Source: Thiomicrorhabdus sp. Kp2
Lineage (GTDB): Bacteria; Pseudomonadota; Gammaproteobacteria; Thiomicrospirales; Thiomicrospiraceae
Reading direction: 5' to 3'
DNA: 64,000 nucleotides
Assembly (NCBI RefSeq): GCF_000478585.1
Contig: NZ_ARWI01000001.1
Location: 248,001 to 312,000, forward strand
The position numbers and the translations under genes were made by a program. Position 1 is the stretch's first letter; every line of letters begins with the position of its first letter. The notes under the pieces are model-generated. The model searched no databases. It was given only the letters and a program-made list of their open reading frames with translations, and was not told where the DNA came from. Below, in pieces: positions 19,501 to 26,529 of the stretch.

Positions 19501-20000
19501 GAGCGGTAAAATCCCTTAAATCAGGTAAACAACCCGAATTAAATACGTCTTTACATAGTGGTAGCGAGGTTGACTTAGGTGTTACTGCGTTAATCCCGGA
19601 AGACTATCTACCAGATGTACACACTCGATTGGTTTTTTACAAACGTATAGCCAGCGCCGAATCAAAAGCCGATTTAAGAGAGCTCGAAGTCGAGATGATT
19701 GACCGTTTTGGCCTTTTACCTGAATCGGTTAAACAACTTTTTGCAGTCACTAAAGTTAAATTACTGATTGAACCCATTGGCATTACTAAGTTGGATGCGG
19801 GCGAATCAATGATACGCATACAGTTTAATAACGAACCTAACATTGACCCAATGAAACTGATTAAACTAATCCAATCACAACCCAAGCAATTCCAACTAAA
19901 AGGACAGACTGAACTCTCCTTTTTAGATACAATGCCTGATATTGAACAAAGAATATCCGCAATTGAGCTGATAGTTCGCAGCATCGCTATAGAAAATTGA
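16554..20000 (+). CDS. mfd: Transcription-repair coupling factor Mfd
   Basis: Mfd removes RNA polymerase stalled at DNA lesions and recruits UvrA. The 1148-residue protein has the UvrB-like N-terminal modules, the RNA-polymerase interaction domain (about 465-560, starting LIELDLGSPIVHIDHGVGRY), the RecG-like translocase with Walker A GDVGFGKTE and box II IIDEEHRFG, the TRG region (GAGFMLASHDLEIRGAGELLG) and the C-terminal UvrA-masking domain. A longer frame starts at TTG 16518, but the ATG at 16554 gives exactly the E. coli length. The MITE-like element lies in its promoter region, and csiV follows. Confidence 0.97.
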   Translation: MKKLASLLQTDQITTKGNRSYWAPLNQSESALAIANHAKNLPGLVVVLTENSQIANQLQDSLTFLVNESTDILTFPEWETLPYDQFSPHQDIVSERLKTLYKLPSTQHGILIVPIATVMQKVVPHDYIQQFTFLLKTGDTIDVESFSQQLESASYQRVGQVYEHGEFAVRGAIIDLFPMGSRTPFRIDLFDDEVETIRSFDPETQRSIEQIDKIELLPAKEFNFTKQGIDLFRNNFKEYFGDDSRESQIYKSVSQAQMVGGLEYYLPLFHNSLASLFDYLPKNSLFFDFGKLDETLDHILMDYSERYEIGQHNPDFPLLKPTEILLEPNSFLTQLKPYHRITLETVCSKKTTTTFNTLSLPDLSVQAQSEYPLAKLIAFLDRYKQKVIYSAETTGRRETLLTLLAKYQQRPAIVENWNQALESNSQYCIVVSPLETSIHTEEFSVISETQIFGQTVVQKRRRKRKHNDFDTAVSNLIELDLGSPIVHIDHGVGRYLGLETLEIQGEKKEFLMIEYAGDAKLYVPVSSLHLISRYTGATPETAPLHKLGSDKWEKAKRKAAEKVRDVAAELLDVYAQRAARPGYAFQTPDEAYQRFASSFPFEETPDQQQAIEAVMDDMHSPLPMDRLVCGDVGFGKTEVAMRAAFVAAYDGKQVAMLVPTTLLAHQHLENFRTRFSDWPVRIEVLSRFQTPKQQKQTLEDLKEGKVDIIIGTHKLIQKSVDYQNLGLIIIDEEHRFGVRQKEQLKKMRTEVDVLTMTATPIPRTLNMAMNDLRDLSIIATAPAKRLAVQTFVQEWNDDVVREASLREIRRGGQVYILYNQVDRIEQMVEHIEALIPEAKVTYAHGQMHERELESVMENFYHRRYNILVCTTIIETGIDIPTANTILIHRADKFGLAQLHQLRGRVGRSHHKAYAYMFTAGKAMLTKDAEKRLTAIAKHDTLGAGFMLASHDLEIRGAGELLGDGQSGQIQEIGFGLYSELLERAVKSLKSGKQPELNTSLHSGSEVDLGVTALIPEDYLPDVHTRLVFYKRIASAESKADLRELEVEMIDRFGLLPESVKQLFAVTKVKLLIEPIGITKLDAGESMIRIQFNNEPNIDPMKLIKLIQSQPKQFQLKGQTELSFLDTMPDIEQRISAIELIVRSIAIEN
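16676..16687. repeat. ACCAGGCCTGGT palindrome, copy 4 (in mfd)
   Basis: Exact copy read as (tt)a-cca-ggc-ctg-gtt, encoding Leu-Pro-Gly-Leu-Val. Confidence 0.9.
18288..18299. repeat. Near-copy of the palindrome (11/12) in mfd
   Basis: GCCAGGCCTGGT: only the first base differs from the consensus. It is read in the Ala-Arg-Pro-Gly frame. Confidence 0.7.
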
Positions 20001-20051
20001 TTCTTTAACCATGAACTATGTTTTTAAAACGCTTTATATTAAGAGCTTCAA

Positions 20052-20708
20052 ATGACTAAAAAACCTAATTTTATGCAGTTACTTTTTATCAAAAGCCAGG
20101 TTATGGTTTTTCTCTTTGTGGCTTTTTTTGCCTCATTCACCACACAAGCACAGGCAAAAGCAGACAACTATACGATTGAAGTCATTGTGTTTGAAAGTCT
20201 TGCCTTAAAAGGTTGGACAGAAGAATATTGGCCAGAAGAGTTTGAACGCCCTAATATTGAAGGGAGCACCTCTGTTTTTAGCCGTGGCCAAAAACCCTTG
20301 TGGATTAACGATACGAATAACGCGTTAAATGGCGCCGTTAACCAACTGAACAAAAGAGGCTATCGAGTTTTATTTCACCAGGCCTGGTCACAAATTGCTT
20401 ATGCCAATAAAAAAGCTCCTACCGTTTTAATCGAAGATGACAAAAAGTCTGGGGCGGACATGTTAGGAACCGTGAGACTTTATAAAACACGCTATGCTCA
20501 TGTTGATTTTGACTTAGAGTTTGAAAGACGAATTCCAGATAAAATAATGACGGAATTTTTACAGAATCAAAAAATCACCACAACTGAAACACCAGCGAGC
20601 TGGCGTTTTCACCTTAAAGAATCACGAAAAATTAAACCTGGTGAGTTGCACTATATTGATCACCCACTGTTTGGTGTCCTGGTTAAAATTCAAAAAAATG
20701 AAGAATAA
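20052..20708 (+). CDS. csiV: CsiV family periplasmic protein
   Basis: A 218-residue exported protein encoded 51 bases after mfd. It has an N-terminal hydrophobic signal (about residues 17-35, ending at AQA), a mature start YTIEVIVFESLALKGWTEEYWPE, and the conserved tail RKIKPGELHYIDHPLFGVLV typical of CsiV. CsiV is described in Vibrio as a peptidoglycan-binding protein needed for D-amino-acid-related wall control, and its gene usually follows mfd in gammaproteobacteria. Position and tail support the call; the role in this organism is inferred. Confidence 0.82.
   Translation: MTKKPNFMQLLFIKSQVMVFLFVAFFASFTTQAQAKADNYTIEVIVFESLALKGWTEEYWPEEFERPNIEGSTSVFSRGQKPLWINDTNNALNGAVNQLNKRGYRVLFHQAWSQIAYANKKAPTVLIEDDKKSGADMLGTVRLYKTRYAHVDFDLEFERRIPDKIMTEFLQNQKITTTETPASWRFHLKESRKIKPGELHYIDHPLFGVLVKIQKNEE
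20377..20388. repeat. ACCAGGCCTGGT palindrome, copy 5 (in csiV)
   Basis: Exact copy read as (c)ac-cag-gcc-tgg-t, encoding His-Gln-Ala-Trp, a frame different from the mfd copy. Confidence 0.9.
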
Positions 20709-20786
20709 CCCTACAGATTGAAGCAACGGTAAACTTATAAAAAGAGCCATGATAAGTGGCATGCAAGGGTCTCAAATTGAAAATAA

Positions 20787-21503
20787 TTATTCTAGTGAAT
20801 ATTCAAATTTCTGAGAAACAAATCGTGTTTTAACGGATAGACCAATGTATTGTTCTGGTAAATCCTCTTTTAATTGATAAAAACCCGCAATACTAATCAG
20901 CTCTGGCTCAAATACATAAGCCCTAATCGTAATTTCATCAATATTCATAAAGCCAGAATTACCTGCATAAGCCTTACCATTTAGGCTACCGCCAATATAT
21001 ATATTGCCATCCGCAATAACTTCAGCCCCTAATTCAACATCCCCAAGTACAATCAAATCACAACCTTCAGCATACAGCTGTTCACCAGCATAAACATTTT
21101 GGTGATAAGTATAGGGGGGCGGCGTTTGTTCAGAACTAGAACGCAAGTTCTCAACGTTTGATTGATTACTCAATGCAACTTCAAACAAATCCAATTGATT
21201 CATTTTTTCATTAAAAATCGCAAGACCTGCATAGTGAGCCTGTTCAAATAAAGATTCATCCTCTGTTTTTAAACCTATTGGCAGAAAGTTTAACTGTCTT
21301 AAAACTTCCACTAATTGGGCTAAAAAGGCTGGCTCTGAAGCATCCGTTTCAATAGAAAGAACGCAAGGAACTGAGAAAAACTCATGAGTTTCAATTGGTA
21401 CATAGCGTTTTAGTTCATCACTAATCTTAGCAATATCACAATGTAAAACTTGAATGACTGGTAAAGAAAAGTCGCTCTTTTGAAGATGAATTATTGCGGA
21501 CAT
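20787..21503 (-). CDS. minC: Septum site-determining protein MinC
   Basis: MinC inhibits FtsZ polymerisation away from midcell. The 238-residue protein has the N-terminal FtsZ-inhibiting domain (about 1-110), a polar linker, and the right-handed beta-helix C-terminal domain (VYAGEQLYAEGCDLIVLGDVELGAEVIADG and later Gly turns) that dimerises and binds MinD. It is convergent with csiV, and no minD or minE follows, which departs from the usual minCDE operon. Confidence 0.93.
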   Translation of the reverse strand: MSAIIHLQKSDFSLPVIQVLHCDIAKISDELKRYVPIETHEFFSVPCVLSIETDASEPAFLAQLVEVLRQLNFLPIGLKTEDESLFEQAHYAGLAIFNEKMNQLDLFEVALSNQSNVENLRSSSEQTPPPYTYHQNVYAGEQLYAEGCDLIVLGDVELGAEVIADGNIYIGGSLNGKAYAGNSGFMNIDEITIRAYVFEPELISIAGFYQLKEDLPEQYIGLSVKTRFVSQKFEYSLE

Positions 21504-21587
21504 AATGACTCATTCATAAATAATTCAGAGGAGTCTACAAGAGTGGAAAATCGCTGTCAATCTAGAACCCTCTCACTGTTTTCAAAA

Positions 21588-22235
21588 TTATGTTTTAATG
21601 CGTTTAGGAGGGTTTTCTCTTCTATCATGGTTTGCGCGCCTTCTATCTTGACTATTATGCCGATGCTCTTCTTTGGCTTCACGCCATTCATGTGCATGAG
21701 CATGTCTACGATTATGCCACCCCCTCCTACGATCATAGTATCTACGAATCTGTTTAGAAATTTGAACACGTAGTGTAAATAATAAAAACAGAGTTAAAGT
21801 CATCCCGACCATACATAAACGGCCTATACAGTCATGAGCACATTCAAAGTATTTAGCATCAAACATCGTCACATAAACCACAAAGTCAATACGAATAGAG
21901 TTAATAATGACTAAATACAAATACCCCTCAATCACCCAAATCAGTCGATTGAGCCATGCCGTTGGGTAAGCAATAATGGCCACAGCAAATAACAAAAAAG
22001 CCGCCAAGCCATTACAGCCGTCTAATATCCAAATATTAAAACCATGGTCTAAATAAATTGTATTGCCAACCATTTTGACAGGAATTTCAAACCACTCAAT
22101 CCAAAGTTGGGTTAAATAGATTGTTAAATCCGTTTGTAACGTTTGCACAAAATAGAACGGTGAAAACGACTCTATAAAAAACAGAATAAACAGCAATACT
22201 AACCAAAGTAGATAGCGTATAAGAAACCACAACAC
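21588..22235 (-). CDS. Exosortase/archaeosortase family protein
   Basis: Exosortases are multi-pass transpeptidase-like enzymes that process proteins bearing a C-terminal sorting tail. This short 215-residue member has about five to six helices and the catalytic triad in the family order: Cys74 (DGCNGLAAFLLF), Arg115 (INSIRIDF) and His134 (ECAHDCIGRL). An unusual cytoplasmic tail of about 55 residues (161-215) is rich in Arg and His. The gene lies directly downstream of a C-terminally tagged surface protein, separated by a terminator, so it is probably a dedicated enzyme for that one target. The subtype could not be assigned. Confidence 0.85.
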   Translation of the reverse strand: MLWFLIRYLLWLVLLFILFFIESFSPFYFVQTLQTDLTIYLTQLWIEWFEIPVKMVGNTIYLDHGFNIWILDGCNGLAAFLLFAVAIIAYPTAWLNRLIWVIEGYLYLVIINSIRIDFVVYVTMFDAKYFECAHDCIGRLCMVGMTLTLFLLFTLRVQISKQIRRYYDRRRGWHNRRHAHAHEWREAKEEHRHNSQDRRRANHDRRENPPKRIKT

Positions 22236-22269
22236 TTTAAATACCTCTGTTTATTCTTTTTTAACCAAT

Positions 22270-22306
22270 AAAAAACCCTCGCATGACAATAACATGCAAG
22301 GGTTAG
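22270..22306 (-). terminator. Terminator between surface-protein gene and exosortase
   Basis: Minus-strand stem AACCCTTGCATG / CATGCGAGGGTT followed by TTTTTT. Partial read-through would give low exosortase and high substrate levels. Confidence 0.85.
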
Positions 22307-22324
22307 CTTAGTGAAACTTAATGA

Positions 22325-23896
22325 TTATTTAGACATTTTGTTTCTAACAATCCAACCACCAAGCCCTAAGAAAGCAAGAATCATTAGGATAAGCCCTGAC
22401 TGACTCATAAAGCTTGCTGAACCACCAGATGACGTTGTAGCTGTACCAGTATCGGTACCAGTGTCAATACTTGGAAATGTAGCAGGTGTTGCAATCCAAG
22501 AAGGTACTACATCATCACCCTCATCAGTTGAGACAATCGGTGTCATACGCAATGTAAATGTATTGTTAGCTGCTTCAGGGAAAGTTGTTGGATCTCCCAC
22601 TTCAACAAGGTAAGTTAAACCTAGGTTTAATAAATCCTCAATACCACCTACTGAATATAACGTCACATCTTTTGCAACTTCATTAGCAATATCTTGAACT
22701 TCTTGTTCAGTGATAACCGCAAAACCATCTGCAATACCTTTACGCCACGCAACAGTCTCATCCGTTGGTGAAGGTCCCCAATAAGCCACTAAAGCCGCAT
22801 CCGTTAACGGATTATTGTCATCATCATAAAAGACACCCGTTGGCTCCCACTTACTTGGTAACCAATTACCAAAGATATTCACATAATTACTGTTCATTGC
22901 CGCTGAGGATTGAATAATGGTTCCATTTTCGTCAACATCAATAACATAACCTGCTCTAGTCAAATCAAAAAAACCATTTGGGTGTTTATCATCTTCCTTT
23001 CCAAATAATCCAGCAGAGAAAGTTGCTCTATCGTCTTCAGCAAAAACGTACTGATCCGCATCACCCGCGGTGTAGGATAATTTAACGTCACCAACTCCAT
23101 TGGCGTTTGTAAAGCTTGCACCAATTCCAAAACCAACTTCTACCTTAATACCAGAGTAACGTCTATCACTGTAGTTATTAAGCTTTTGTAAAACCATATA
23201 TTCACGAACAGCAACCTCAGCACCTTCATTAGCATCGACATTGAAGACAAAATCAATTGGTTTGGCTTCTGTACCAGCCATATCTTCTGCTGTTGGTGTT
23301 AGAGCATCAACCTTAAAACGTTTATGTGTCTGGAAAGGGCTATCACAGTAAGTAGGATTAACATTCGCTTCATCAGCAGTATCTAACCAACCCTCATCTT
23401 GAGGATCTGTTCCAGTGTAGTTTCCTTCCTCATCATAATTTTTTGGATCATCACCATTTGTGAAAAAAGAAGTGCTTAAAATACAGCTTGCAGGTTTTCC
23501 ACTACCATTTTGAAGATCTAATGGGCCAGCACTATTTACCACCTTAATTCCATGAGGCTCACCAACAGGCCAATCTTTACCATGTAATGAACCCGTTGTA
23601 TTTCCAGCGCCATCATTAATAAGACTTTTGAAAGTATCTCCCACAACCATTTGACTGTAAACGCCTGTATCAGAATCAAAACTTTTAGCAACTTCTTCAC
23701 CTGTCTCTACATCAACAATCAAAGGGGTAACGTTATCTAAATTTAAACCACCAATACCAAAAGCAACTGGACCATCTTGTGAAGTATAAGCCGTACCAGG
23801 TGCAACACCTATAATCTGCCCAGCGTTAGCGGTTAAACTTGCACACAATAAAGCTACACTTAAACCACTTAATTTAAACTGTTTGTTTAGGTTCAT
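22325..23896 (-). CDS. Exported surface protein with exosortase-type C-terminal signal
   Basis: A 523-residue acidic protein. Signal peptide: LSGLSVALLCASLTANA, then mature GQIIGVAPG. The body is Asp/Gly/Thr-rich with no recognised enzyme motif. The C-terminus has the tripartite sorting pattern: a Thr/Ser/Gly-rich stretch (GTDTGTATTSSGGSAS), the motif FMSQSG, one membrane helix (LILMILAFLGLGGWIV) and a basic end RNKMSK. It lacks Pro-Glu-Pro, so it is not a classic PEP-CTERM. A strong GAGGAGGG ribosome site precedes the ATG. Its neighbours are the exosortase (downstream) and a divergent LuxR-type regulator. It may belong to one of the multi-anchor surface-protein families, but I cannot name one. 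Confidence 0.75.
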   Translation of the reverse strand: MNLNKQFKLSGLSVALLCASLTANAGQIIGVAPGTAYTSQDGPVAFGIGGLNLDNVTPLIVDVETGEEVAKSFDSDTGVYSQMVVGDTFKSLINDGAGNTTGSLHGKDWPVGEPHGIKVVNSAGPLDLQNGSGKPASCILSTSFFTNGDDPKNYDEEGNYTGTDPQDEGWLDTADEANVNPTYCDSPFQTHKRFKVDALTPTAEDMAGTEAKPIDFVFNVDANEGAEVAVREYMVLQKLNNYSDRRYSGIKVEVGFGIGASFTNANGVGDVKLSYTAGDADQYVFAEDDRATFSAGLFGKEDDKHPNGFFDLTRAGYVIDVDENGTIIQSSAAMNSNYVNIFGNWLPSKWEPTGVFYDDDNNPLTDAALVAYWGPSPTDETVAWRKGIADGFAVITEQEVQDIANEVAKDVTLYSVGGIEDLLNLGLTYLVEVGDPTTFPEAANNTFTLRMTPIVSTDEGDDVVPSWIATPATFPSIDTGTDTGTATTSSGGSASFMSQSGLILMILAFLGLGGWIVRNKMSK

Positions 23897-23963
23897 AAAA
23901 ACCCTCCTCTAAATTTATTTATTGTTCTTTACCTTTTTCAATTACATAATAGAGTGATACGCA

Positions 23964-23984
23964 CTATTAGTCACCACCTATTAG
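23964..23984. promoter_or_regulatory. Direct repeat CTATTAG in the divergent promoter region
   Basis: CTATTAG occurs twice, 14 bases apart from start to start, within a run that also contains CACC/GGTG half-sites. It lies between the surface-protein gene and the LuxR-type gene, so it is a candidate operator for that regulator. This is inferred from position only. Confidence 0.4.
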
Positions 23985-24087
23985 GGTGATATTCAAAGTT
24001 AAATTATTAATATTTTCTTACAAATTGATTTGACGCATAAATTTTTGTGGTAATTTAAAAAAAACATTTTTTAGAGAGACTTGATTT

Positions 24088-24867
24088 ATGGAAGGCATTC
24101 TTGATATTGACCTACTTCAACAAACCATTAATATACAATCCTGTTTGATTGAAGGGCATAGCATTGAGGCGATATTTCGTAATAAAGCTGAATTTTTTTT
24201 TGAACAATCTGATGCTGAGTTTGCTGGACTTTCCATCTTACAAAAAGATTGTCTACAATTAGAGTTTATCATTGAAAAAGGCAATGCTTTTCACCAACTT
24301 TTAAAGCGCTATCACCTGCAAAGCCATACCTTAGTTCTAGATTCATACCTTAAAAATAATCGCCAAAAACTAAAAGAAAACCAACTTTTTCTTAAAGAAA
24401 AAAGTCTATTGAGTTTTCTCAGCGACTCTTTAAGTAAAAATAAAATTGGTTATTTTGAAGAAAACAATCAATTCAAAGAAATGATCTCTTTGCCCTTATT
24501 CTCACTAGAAAATCAATTGATTGGTTTTATCTTTTTTTGTTATCTAGGTGACTCTAAACATAACCCTGATAACTTATTAAAAATAAGGACGATGGTTGAA
24601 ACCATTATTCGACCTTTTCACGATATAAAAACCAATTCGTTTCAAGGTAAATGCATTCAAATTCTTACTGATATGCCCTTACTGACATCTAAAGAGAAAC
24701 ATATTTTAAAAAAATTAATGTCTGCTAAAACCTACGCTCAAATTGCAGATGAGATGCACATTAGCGTTAATACGGTTAAAACCCATATTAAACACATCTA
24801 TGCTAAATATGAAGTCAGTTCTAAACTAGAGCTTTCTAACAAAGTTAACTCTGGAAGCCTAATATAA
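24088..24867 (+). CDS. LuxR-type transcriptional regulator with N-terminal GAF-like region
   Basis: The 259-residue cytoplasmic protein has a C-terminal LuxR/FixJ helix-turn-helix (about 198-255: SKEKHILKKLMSAKTYAQIADEM, then ISVNTVKTHIKHIYAKYEV), with the classic VNTVKTH recognition helix. The first 180 residues look like a GAF-type sensory fold (about 20-170), but no ligand-binding motif is recognisable. No receiver aspartate or autoinducer-binding signature is seen. It is divergent from the exosortase substrate gene, suggesting local control of that locus. Confidence 0.8.
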   Translation: MEGILDIDLLQQTINIQSCLIEGHSIEAIFRNKAEFFFEQSDAEFAGLSILQKDCLQLEFIIEKGNAFHQLLKRYHLQSHTLVLDSYLKNNRQKLKENQLFLKEKSLLSFLSDSLSKNKIGYFEENNQFKEMISLPLFSLENQLIGFIFFCYLGDSKHNPDNLLKIRTMVETIIRPFHDIKTNSFQGKCIQILTDMPLLTSKEKHILKKLMSAKTYAQIADEMHISVNTVKTHIKHIYAKYEVSSKLELSNKVNSGSLI

Positions 24868-24910
24868 TAATGCCCGCTTAGTTTAGTTATTTGATTGCAT
24901 TATAGATACA

Positions 24911-24942
24911 AAAAAACCAGTGCTATTCACACTGGCTTTTTA
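24911..24942. terminator. Bidirectional terminator after the LuxR-type gene
   Basis: Stem CCAGTG / CACTGG flanked by A-run and T-run, between convergent genes. Confidence 0.75.
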
Positions 24943-24969
24943 ATTTAAACGCTAAGCACTTGAAATTAA

Positions 24970-25350
24970 TTAGTGCTTGCCACCCCCACCAGAACGATTC
25001 ATTGAACCGCTACCACCATTCATACTTCTATTCCCAGTACGATTATCTGAACGGCCGTCTGATTTACCACCCGCACCATTAGCTTGTTTATTTTTTTCGG
25101 CTTTTTGAAGCTCACCTTCAAGGGTTTTTTGATGCTGATACATATTTTTATTTTGAATTTGCTTTTGATTTACCCCACCACCTTGAGGTATAGCTGGCCC
25201 AACTTGGTCATGTGTTTGCAATTGTGTCTGTTGCTGTGTATTTAACTGAACAGCTTCTTCTGCAAAGACACTAAACGACGCACCTAACACCAAAGCTGAA
25301 CCTAATACAGAGTTTTTCGCAACTTGTTTAACTAAATGATACATTTTCAT
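24970..25350 (-). CDS. Small exported Gln/Asn/Gly-rich basic protein
   Basis: A 126-residue protein with a clear signal peptide (VLGSALVLGASFSVFAE) and no other recognisable domain. The mature part is low-complexity: a Gln/Thr-rich start, a Lys/Gln-rich middle with predicted coil (TLEGELQKAEKNKQ), and a Gly/Arg/Ser/Asn-rich tail ending GGGGKH. GGGAG precedes the ATG at good spacing, supporting a real gene. Its nearness to the exosortase locus may be coincidental. Function unknown; a surface or extracellular role is possible. Confidence 0.75.
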   Translation of the reverse strand: MKMYHLVKQVAKNSVLGSALVLGASFSVFAEEAVQLNTQQQTQLQTHDQVGPAIPQGGGVNQKQIQNKNMYQHQKTLEGELQKAEKNKQANGAGGKSDGRSDNRTGNRSMNGGSGSMNRSGGGGKH

Positions 25351-25513
25351 AATATTCTCCCTTGAATTGAATATGTAATTTATTTACATTTAAATAATAC
25401 ACCCCATTAAGTTAAAAATCACCTTTTTTATTATATTTTAGATAAAAATAAAACCGTTTAATCTCTATAAACCATGAAAACCCCTGTATTTCATACAGTT
25501 GATATTAGAAACC

Positions 25514-25525
25514 ACCAGGCCTGGT
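25514..25525. repeat. ACCAGGCCTGGT palindrome, copy 6 (intergenic)
   Basis: Exact copy, 106 bases from copy 7. Confidence 0.9.
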
Positions 25526-25611
25526 CAACTTAAATTGTATGAAAATAAAGCAAAATTTTAGGCTTAGTGTGAATATTTAGAATAAAAATAAAAAGATGAA
25601 AAGAAATTAAA

Positions 25612-25639
25612 ACAGAGTTACCAGGCCTGGTAACTCTGT
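25612..25639. repeat. 28-bp perfect palindrome centred on ACCAGGCCTGGT (copy 7)
   Basis: The 12-bp motif (25620-25631) is extended on each side by ACAGAGTT / AACTCTGT, giving 14 complementary base pairs. It lies about 40 bases beyond the thiG stop, so as RNA it could form the hairpin ending the thi operon, although the T-run is weak. Confidence 0.85.
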
Positions 25640-25680
25640 AAATTTAATAAAACTTAATAAAACTTAAAAAAAGAAAAGCG

Positions 25681-26529
25681 TTATGAAGATGAGCTATTAT
25701 GATGCCAAAAAGGTGAATCAATTGTAGGAGTGCTTGGTTGAGCCGATGCTTGCTCAGCCATAGCGCCTGAGCAATAAGCCATACGGCCTGCTTCAATAGA
25801 TAGTTTAAAGGCCCCTGCCATTTGCTGGGGATGATTAGCGTGAGCAATAGCCGTATTTAAAAGAATGGCATCAACCCCCATTTCCATCGCTTGTATGGCA
25901 TGAGATGGTTTACCAATACCCGAATCAACAATCATCGTAATATCAGGAAAACGCTCACGTATCGCTTGCAAAGCGTATGGATTTAAAAGCCCTTTACCTG
26001 TTCCTATTGGCGAACCCCAAGGCATAATTACCTCACAACCTAATTCAACTAAATGGCGGGCAATCACTAAATCATCGGTACAATAGGGTAAAACCTTAAA
26101 GCCATCATTTAATAGAATCTCCGTCGCTTTCACTAAATCAATGGGATCAGGCTGTAGGTTGTAATCATCACCGACCAACTCCAATTTGATCCAGTCCGTT
26201 TGAAAGATTTCGCGACTCATCTTAGCCATATTGACAGCCTCTCTAACAGAATGACAACCTGCGGTATTGGGTAAAAGGTGTACCCCTAAAGACTGAATAA
26301 TATTCCAAAAGGCTTGCCCACCCAACTCATTCGGGTTCTGCCTACTTAATGAAAGCGTGACAACTTGTGCGCCTGATGCCTTTATCGATTCTTGCATCAC
26401 CCATGGTGACGGATACAAAGCACTACCAACAAATAAACGACTGGTTAATGGTGTACCGTAGATGGATAGGCTATCATTTTGATTAAGAGTTGAATCCATC
26501 GTAACGGTATTTTGTTCTTGCTGTAACAC
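25681..26529 (-). CDS. thiG: Thiazole synthase
   Basis: ThiG condenses 1-deoxy-xylulose 5-phosphate, the glycine-derived imine and ThiS thiocarboxylate into the thiamine thiazole. The barrel protein shows the Schiff-base Lys in [10 protein letters not shown], the [12 protein letters not shown] phosphate loop and [11 protein letters not shown]. The start is GTG at 26529: it is one base after the thiS stop, and AAGGAGG inside the thiS end is 5 bases upstream. The ATG 42 bases earlier would overlap thiS. The 282-residue form has a 25-residue Ser/Pro-rich C-terminal extension. Confidence 0.96.

Follow-up and report, generated by a model that had tools for sequence, protein, structure and literature searches.

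A dedicated exosortase system predicted in Thiomicrorhabdus, in which the tail of the substrate follows the enzyme and its body does not

Which protein does a lone exosortase sort, and which part of that protein does it need? The question is raised by a locus of Thiomicrorhabdus sp. Kp2 lying within a 64,000-nucleotide stretch that was analysed whole (the window; positions 248,001 to 312,000 of NZ_ARWI01000001.1, the source genome being a single contig of 2,725,706 bases). Here a short exosortase gene adjoins the gene of an exported choice-of-anchor F protein, its putative substrate, beside a LuxR-type regulator gene (Table 1). The original prediction held that these three adjacent genes might form a one-enzyme/one-substrate pair with a signal class of its own, and its description of the locus agrees with what we found: all three genes lie where it placed them, the regulator is divergent and of LuxR type, and the exported protein has 523 residues and ends in SSGGSASFMSQSG, followed by a hydrophobic helix and RNKMSK. 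Cys74, Arg115 and His134 of the enzyme are intact, and these residues of the proposed active site are invariant in an alignment of ten enzymes. The Pro-Glu-Pro motif, which the window tail had been said to lack, is missing there and from all ten tails of the group described below.

We searched 62 genomes of the family and found choice-of-anchor F in ten, each time with a short exosortase adjoining. Among named Thiomicrorhabdus species, T. chilensis is one that carries the system. The superfamily model TIGR04178 gave 17 matches in 16 genomes: nine are the short enzymes, each adjoining choice-of-anchor F, and the other eight, spread over seven genomes that lack choice-of-anchor F, are longer exosortases. 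The enzyme of G049 was missed by this genome search; reading of its open reading frames (ORFs) shows one adjoining choice-of-anchor F, and a direct scan puts it over the TIGR04178 cut-off (32.4 bits). With a profile built from the ten enzymes, each of the ten genomes had a single match and the other 52 had none. With one built from the ten tails, each of the ten had a single strong match (E 6.1e-22 to 1.5e-17), and the best of the remaining matches among the 62 genomes was E 0.0045, in G038. A profile necessarily matches the sequences that it was built from, so what these searches tell is the single copy and the absence elsewhere. In the source genome there was one exosortase match and one strong tail match (E 1.1e-21; the other three had E 0.245 or worse), so that a search for further tail-bearing targets found none. 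Nor was the tail seen as a plain anchor in relatives that have no exosortase, strong matches being confined to the ten enzyme-bearing genomes. The proposal of a dedicated pair is thus supported by a single enzyme and a single adjacent target in 10 of 10 genomes; judged from sequence, this is a dedicated sorting system.

Protein distances of enzyme and tail were strongly correlated (r 0.83, Mantel p 1e-4; ten genomes), and those of enzyme and substrate body, about 460 residues, were not (r -0.02, p 0.49; nine genomes, G005 being left out of the body alignment for its transposase-interrupted substrate gene). Tail and body were likewise uncorrelated (r -0.03), though they are parts of one gene. 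When the substrate was scanned in 40-column windows, its correlation with the enzyme stayed between -0.17 and 0.11 up to residue 464, then rose to 0.36 for residues 439–488, 0.72 for 465–508 and 0.70 for the last 36 columns, which puts the switch at about residue 465. The signal-peptide end (residues 1–40) behaved like the body (r -0.06).

Tree comparisons gave the same picture. The enzyme tree of the nine genomes has two clades (support 100/100), and mapping their split on the body tree needs three changes, not one; forcing the enzyme clades on the body tree cost 129.9 log units and was rejected by the approximately unbiased (AU) test (p-AU 1.3e-5). In the body tree, G028 and G049, which have clade II enzymes, join G047 and G025 of clade I (100/99), and G026, also with a clade II enzyme, joins G046 of clade I (99/99). 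The mean tail distance was 0.40 within enzyme clades (20 pairs) against 0.62 between them (25 pairs). At least two inter-clade body exchanges are needed. Lineages have thus swapped the substrate body, but the tail has remained with its enzyme; in our reading, the tail is what the enzyme requires. This natural chimera within one family appears new as far as our analysis shows.

Neighbouring genes served as controls. In the eight genomes compared, enzyme distances correlated with those of the regulator (r 0.88), the tail (0.67), a small exported Gln/Gly-rich protein encoded nearby (0.65) and MinC (0.48) but not with those of the body (-0.09), and body distances correlated with none of the others (-0.12 to 0.01). 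Small protein and MinC distances were not significantly related (r 0.17, p 0.20), which speaks against simple descent of the locus as a unit, as does the lack of significance between tail and small protein (r 0.22, p 0.13). G021 is instructive: (i) its regulator and MinC are closer to clade I (identity 0.42–0.43 vs 0.29–0.33 and 0.70–0.72 vs 0.35–0.37), and its body is closest to that of G024, also clade I; (ii) its enzyme is closer to clade II (0.48–0.53 vs 0.38–0.41), and its three closest tails all belong to clade II. Because enzyme and tail side with one clade and regulator, MinC and body with the other, enzyme and tail travel together; the placing of regulator and MinC with clade I but enzyme with clade II also argues against simple unit descent.

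Where might the substrate be destined? It scores 192 bits with the choice-of-anchor F model NF033657 (cut-off 50); its structure model was poor, with a mean predicted local distance difference test (pLDDT) value of 43.9. Among 369 genomes of the class, choice-of-anchor F occurs in four besides our own. Three of these copies are fused to the autotransporter beta-domain PF03797 (E 2.7e-51 to 4.7e-48), and the genomes of these three gave no match to TIGR04178. The fourth copy has a PEP-like end, VPAPQTAGLLLTGLALVVAGRRRQAGPC, and an exosortase is strongly matched in its genome (E 2.2e-22). One further copy was found among 398 genomes of the phylum (G537), the end of its ORF being barrel-like as we read it. 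The same body is thus combined with unrelated outward devices, and each of these comes with machinery to match; this supports the cell surface as its destination.

The locus also appears to carry its own regulation. Pfam and NCBIfam scans recognised a GerE helix-turn-helix in the regulator and left its N-terminal domain unassigned; a full-length regulator was not found in G005 and G025. A palindromic box, WTCMCC-N6-GGKGAW, lies in the divergent promoter of all seven genomes in which the genes are linked (six exact, one mismatch in the window), although these seven are no test of the box because the consensus was drawn by eye from them. G021 lies outside the seven: its regulator gene stands between thiG-type and csiV-type genes, with the substrate–enzyme pair elsewhere; an exact box precedes the regulator, and the unlinked substrate gene is preceded by one with a single mismatch. 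That substrate promoter holds a second one-mismatch match, of another palindrome type. Before the substrate gene of G005 there was a two-mismatch match at most, and in the 86 readable bases before that of G025 there was none. The small-protein gene is preceded by an exact box in G028 and by one with a single mismatch in G026; in the other eight genomes we found none, or a two-mismatch match (window). Between substrate and enzyme, a hairpin with a U-run folded in G026, G028, G049, G025 and G005 as well as in the window, and did not fold in the remaining four genomes; such a hairpin would give much substrate and little enzyme.

The small Gln/Gly-rich protein occurs in exactly those ten of the 62 genomes that have the pair, the other 52 giving no match (E up to 0.01). 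Its profile was built from eight of the ten copies, so that the unlinked matches in G021 (E 1.4e-7) and G025 (E 0.004, the weakest owing to low complexity) are independent. Pfam and NCBIfam scans of it gave no match of weight. All ten copies have a Gly-containing C-terminal stretch with Lys as the last or second to last residue. The gene belongs with those of exosortase, substrate and regulator in a four-gene set.

How would such a system work? Most probably, in our view, it is a dedicated exosortase system in which a regulator governs a Sec-exported substrate that is recognised by its tail, cut and handed to an acceptor. As the DNA suggests, the LuxR-type regulator would control the substrate gene and itself through the palindromic box. 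The substrate would be exported by Sec and kept tethered by its C-terminal helix, and the adjacent exosortase would recognise it through its tail. By analogy with the superfamily, the Cys-Arg-His site would cut near the motif before the helix; the cut substrate would then be handed to an acceptor and leave the inner membrane for the cell surface or matrix. In a speculative model that its authors put forward for archaeosortase A of Haloferax, a protein bearing a tripartite tag is bound at its new C-terminus by the active-site Cys and then transferred to a lipid amine (PMC7157517, in the text available to us). We think it doubtful, a long shot at best, that the small protein is itself the dedicated partner or acceptor of a four-part secretion module. 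This idea draws on its presence in every one of the ten genomes with the pair, including G021 and G025, where it is unlinked, and on the shared Gly/Lys C-terminus; the enzyme would then join the cut end of the substrate to the small protein, perhaps through that Lys, to make a surface polymer of two proteins. Lineages would exchange the outer body of this polymer, and the enzyme would hold on to the tail.

Could the pair be an outlying member of a known system? The window enzyme passes the exosortase/archaeosortase superfamily model TIGR04178 (37.6 bits, cut-off 23), as do its nine relatives (32.4–53.5 bits). Comparison with hidden Markov models of the Xrt subfamilies, as the original prediction had proposed, left all ten under the cut-off of every named subfamily listed. 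We consider it very unlikely that this is a divergent XrtH with a degenerate IPTL-CTERM signal as its tail: among the named models, XrtH (TIGR04177) does rank first or nearly so for many of the ten (window 52.7 bits, others 31.2–59.8) and one of the ten tails matches the IPTL model weakly (E 0.0086), but none of the ten reaches the XrtH cut-off of 86, XrtX gives several of them a higher score (NF046081, cut-off 170; window 43 bits, others 31.7–59.4), IPT occurs in none of the tails and the window tail gives no IPTL match at E up to 10. The XrtF model gave 28.2 bits for the window enzyme (cut-off 90). Moreover, the ten enzymes form one group in a tree (100/99), on a long branch of 2.82, apart from 27 class relatives that include enzymes exceeding the XrtH cut-off (one of 28 class matches, L143, was dropped because none of its ORFs passed, and the NCBIfam scan covered 10 of the 27). 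We claim no sister group, because the tree tool warned of long branches meeting at the join of the ten with two class sequences. The ten tails match curated tag models weakly: the best matches lie at E 0.0073 to 0.011, and PEP-CTERM matches one tail weakly (E 0.036). It is hardly credible that a rhombosortase encoded elsewhere cuts the tail as a GlyGly-CTERM signal; the window tail does have SSGGSAS before the helix, and SGGS is described as frequent in that signal in the available text of PMC3237569, but none of the ten tails matched the GlyGly-CTERM model up to E 10 (weak matches can be lost to HMMER filters), GGS occurs in only one of five clade I tails (G005), and the adjoining enzyme is an exosortase. 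Thus, the proposed signal class holds at the level of models, and both the exosortase clade, as far as our analysis shows, and the tail class, which no curated model fits, appear to be new.

The remaining alternatives concern what the tail does. A helix with a basic end would equally suit an ordinary membrane anchor, the exosortase acting on something else and the adjacency being historical. This we hold to be improbable to a high degree, because the tail profile gives no second candidate target in the source genome, enzyme and choice-of-anchor F are never apart in the 62 genomes, and the tail tracks the enzyme as the body does not. More serious, if still unlikely, is physical linkage alone: crossovers in the body would have happened upstream of the tail with no selection for recognition. 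The tail and enzyme genes do adjoin, and the distances of regulator, enzyme and in part those of small protein and MinC are inter-correlated; the signal-peptide end, however, was swapped with the body, and the tail was kept in each exchange seen. Such an explanation concerns the origin of the chimera and does not by itself exclude a dedicated pair. Several observations weigh against the dedicated system that we favour. Chance crossovers upstream of a tail merely linked to the enzyme could be responsible for the pattern, about two independent body exchanges are forced and no more, and tails of 36–40 residues give noisy distances, which did not follow those of the small protein. The closest tail to that of G028 is from G021 (clade II, 0.61), but G024 and G047 of clade I follow (0.56 and 0.53). 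Nor is the box pattern a rare one: it occurs at 1–12 places per genome, and a reversed control at 1–6. Cleavage, transfer and surface location are expected by analogy with the superfamily.

Dedicated pairs are a known concept. In the available text of PMC3237569, a sorting enzyme with a single target per genome is treated as a dedicated system, its genes usually adjacent, and homologous bodies that carry different tails are described. The present system shares with those one enzyme and one adjacent target per genome, as well as homologous bodies with different tails and matching enzymes; it differs, as far as that text goes, in an enzyme clade and tail class that have no model and in a body exchanged, with the tail fixed, within one genus. 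With XrtH/IPTL-CTERM (TIGR04177, TIGR04174) it shares a short exosortase, XrtH being the best-scoring named subfamily for the window enzyme, but the ten enzymes lie under the cut-off and the IPTL motif is missing; at the XrtH loci of the class that we read, a second membrane-protein gene often stands next, which is not present at the window locus. PEP-CTERM with XrtA/EpsH belongs to the same superfamily and has a signal peptide and a motif-helix-basic tail, whereas here there is no Pro-Glu-Pro and only one target (PMC12188702, available part); unlike PEP-CTERM/XrtA loci, the neighbouring ORFs that we read contain no polysaccharide cluster. XrtF of Flavobacterium johnsoniae is likewise a variant exosortase with an adjacent partner gene and expected signals unlike PEP-CTERM, and a role in biofilm and colonisation has been shown for it while its targets are not known, the reverse of the window enzyme (PMC10936215, as far as its accessible text goes). 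The regulator recalls EpsA (TIGR03020), the LuxR-type regulator of XrtB/PEP-CTERM, in standing beside an exosortase system, but stays well under that cut-off (28.8 bits, cut-off 170), the helix-turn-helix alone matching. A literature search, with most subscription journals outside it, did not find exosortase together with XrtH, XrtX or Thiomicrorhabdus; we do not claim absence from print.

Where exosortases face numerous targets, as in many genomes, their chemistry is difficult to test; here there is one enzyme and one target. From the chimera one can tell which segment of the target belongs with the enzyme, and with two tail types matching two enzyme clades the material for a specificity swap already exists. 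PEP-CTERM proteins are regarded as exosortase substrates, and their route across the outer membrane is described as unclear (PMC12188702, available part). A system this small should help to find both the acceptor and the outer-membrane route of exosortase substrates.

Table 1. Features of the locus, in window positions unless another contig is named.
Feature	Positions	Strand	Remarks
minC	window 20787-21503; L114:5246-6013		
Exosortase gene	21588-22235	-	215 amino acids (aa), GTG start; Cys74, Arg115, His134; Arg/His-rich C-terminal tail
Terminator-like hairpin, substrate/enzyme intergenic	22274-22304	-	12 pairs, T-rich tail
Substrate gene, choice-of-anchor F protein	22325-23896	-	523 aa; N-terminal signal peptide (by eye)
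Putative sorting tail (last 40 residues of substrate: motif, helix, basic end)	22328-22447	-	alignment, 62-genome search, distance comparison
Palindromic box, ACCACC-N6-GGGTGAT type, divergent promoter	23973-23990	.	one mismatch to WTCMCC-N6-GGKGAW
LuxR-type regulator gene	24088-24867	+	259 aa; GerE helix-turn-helix
Small exported Gln/Gly-rich protein gene	24970-25350	-	co-occurs with the pair in 10/62 genomes

The enzyme is under purifying selection (pN, nonsynonymous, 0.15–0.24 vs pS, synonymous, 0.58–0.68; window against three congeners). The enzymes of G000, G026, G028 and G049 (4 of 10) have an extra Arg/His-rich C-terminal tail of about 50 residues. The enzyme structure model was usable (mean pLDDT 84.3), but its best PDB matches (DgkA, Z 8.1, root-mean-square deviation 5.9, 99 residues aligned) lie at a level that unrelated helical bundles may reach; the enzyme profile matched no PDB chain at E up to 1. 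No exosortase was found in the source genome with PF09721 (EpsH), no relative of the enzyme in a plasmid collection and none in a genome contig collection scanned with the single enzyme; an alignment-based scan of genome contigs returned four Thiomicrorhabdus records among 33 candidate stretches. An Rfam search of window positions 20000–26000 gave no match.

Around the locus, MinC is of two types with only 34–41% identity, one in G000, G026, G028 and G049, the other in G021, G046, G047 and G024, and in G021 the small-protein gene adjoins minC, away from the enzyme. A palindrome, ACCAGGCCTGGT (window 25511–25528), lies upstream of the small-protein gene, also in G049 and G028, and its type recurs elsewhere with CACC/GGTG arms, for instance four times in G021. 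In G005 (L018:4141-6944), a transposase pair of IS3 type, as read from the ORFs, interrupts the substrate gene; enzyme, tail and small protein remain. G038 (L026), a congener, has two longer exosortases, one being a 502-aa ORF. In G025 (T. heinhorstiae, L024:2960-5721), the exosortase is followed by a 728-aa exported ORF with a Cys-containing motif, a DPTLPAILL helix and an RRARRSQV end, and also by a 160-aa membrane ORF, which we take to resemble a CPBP protease and which, with the 728-aa ORF, is perhaps a second, unrelated sorting pair.

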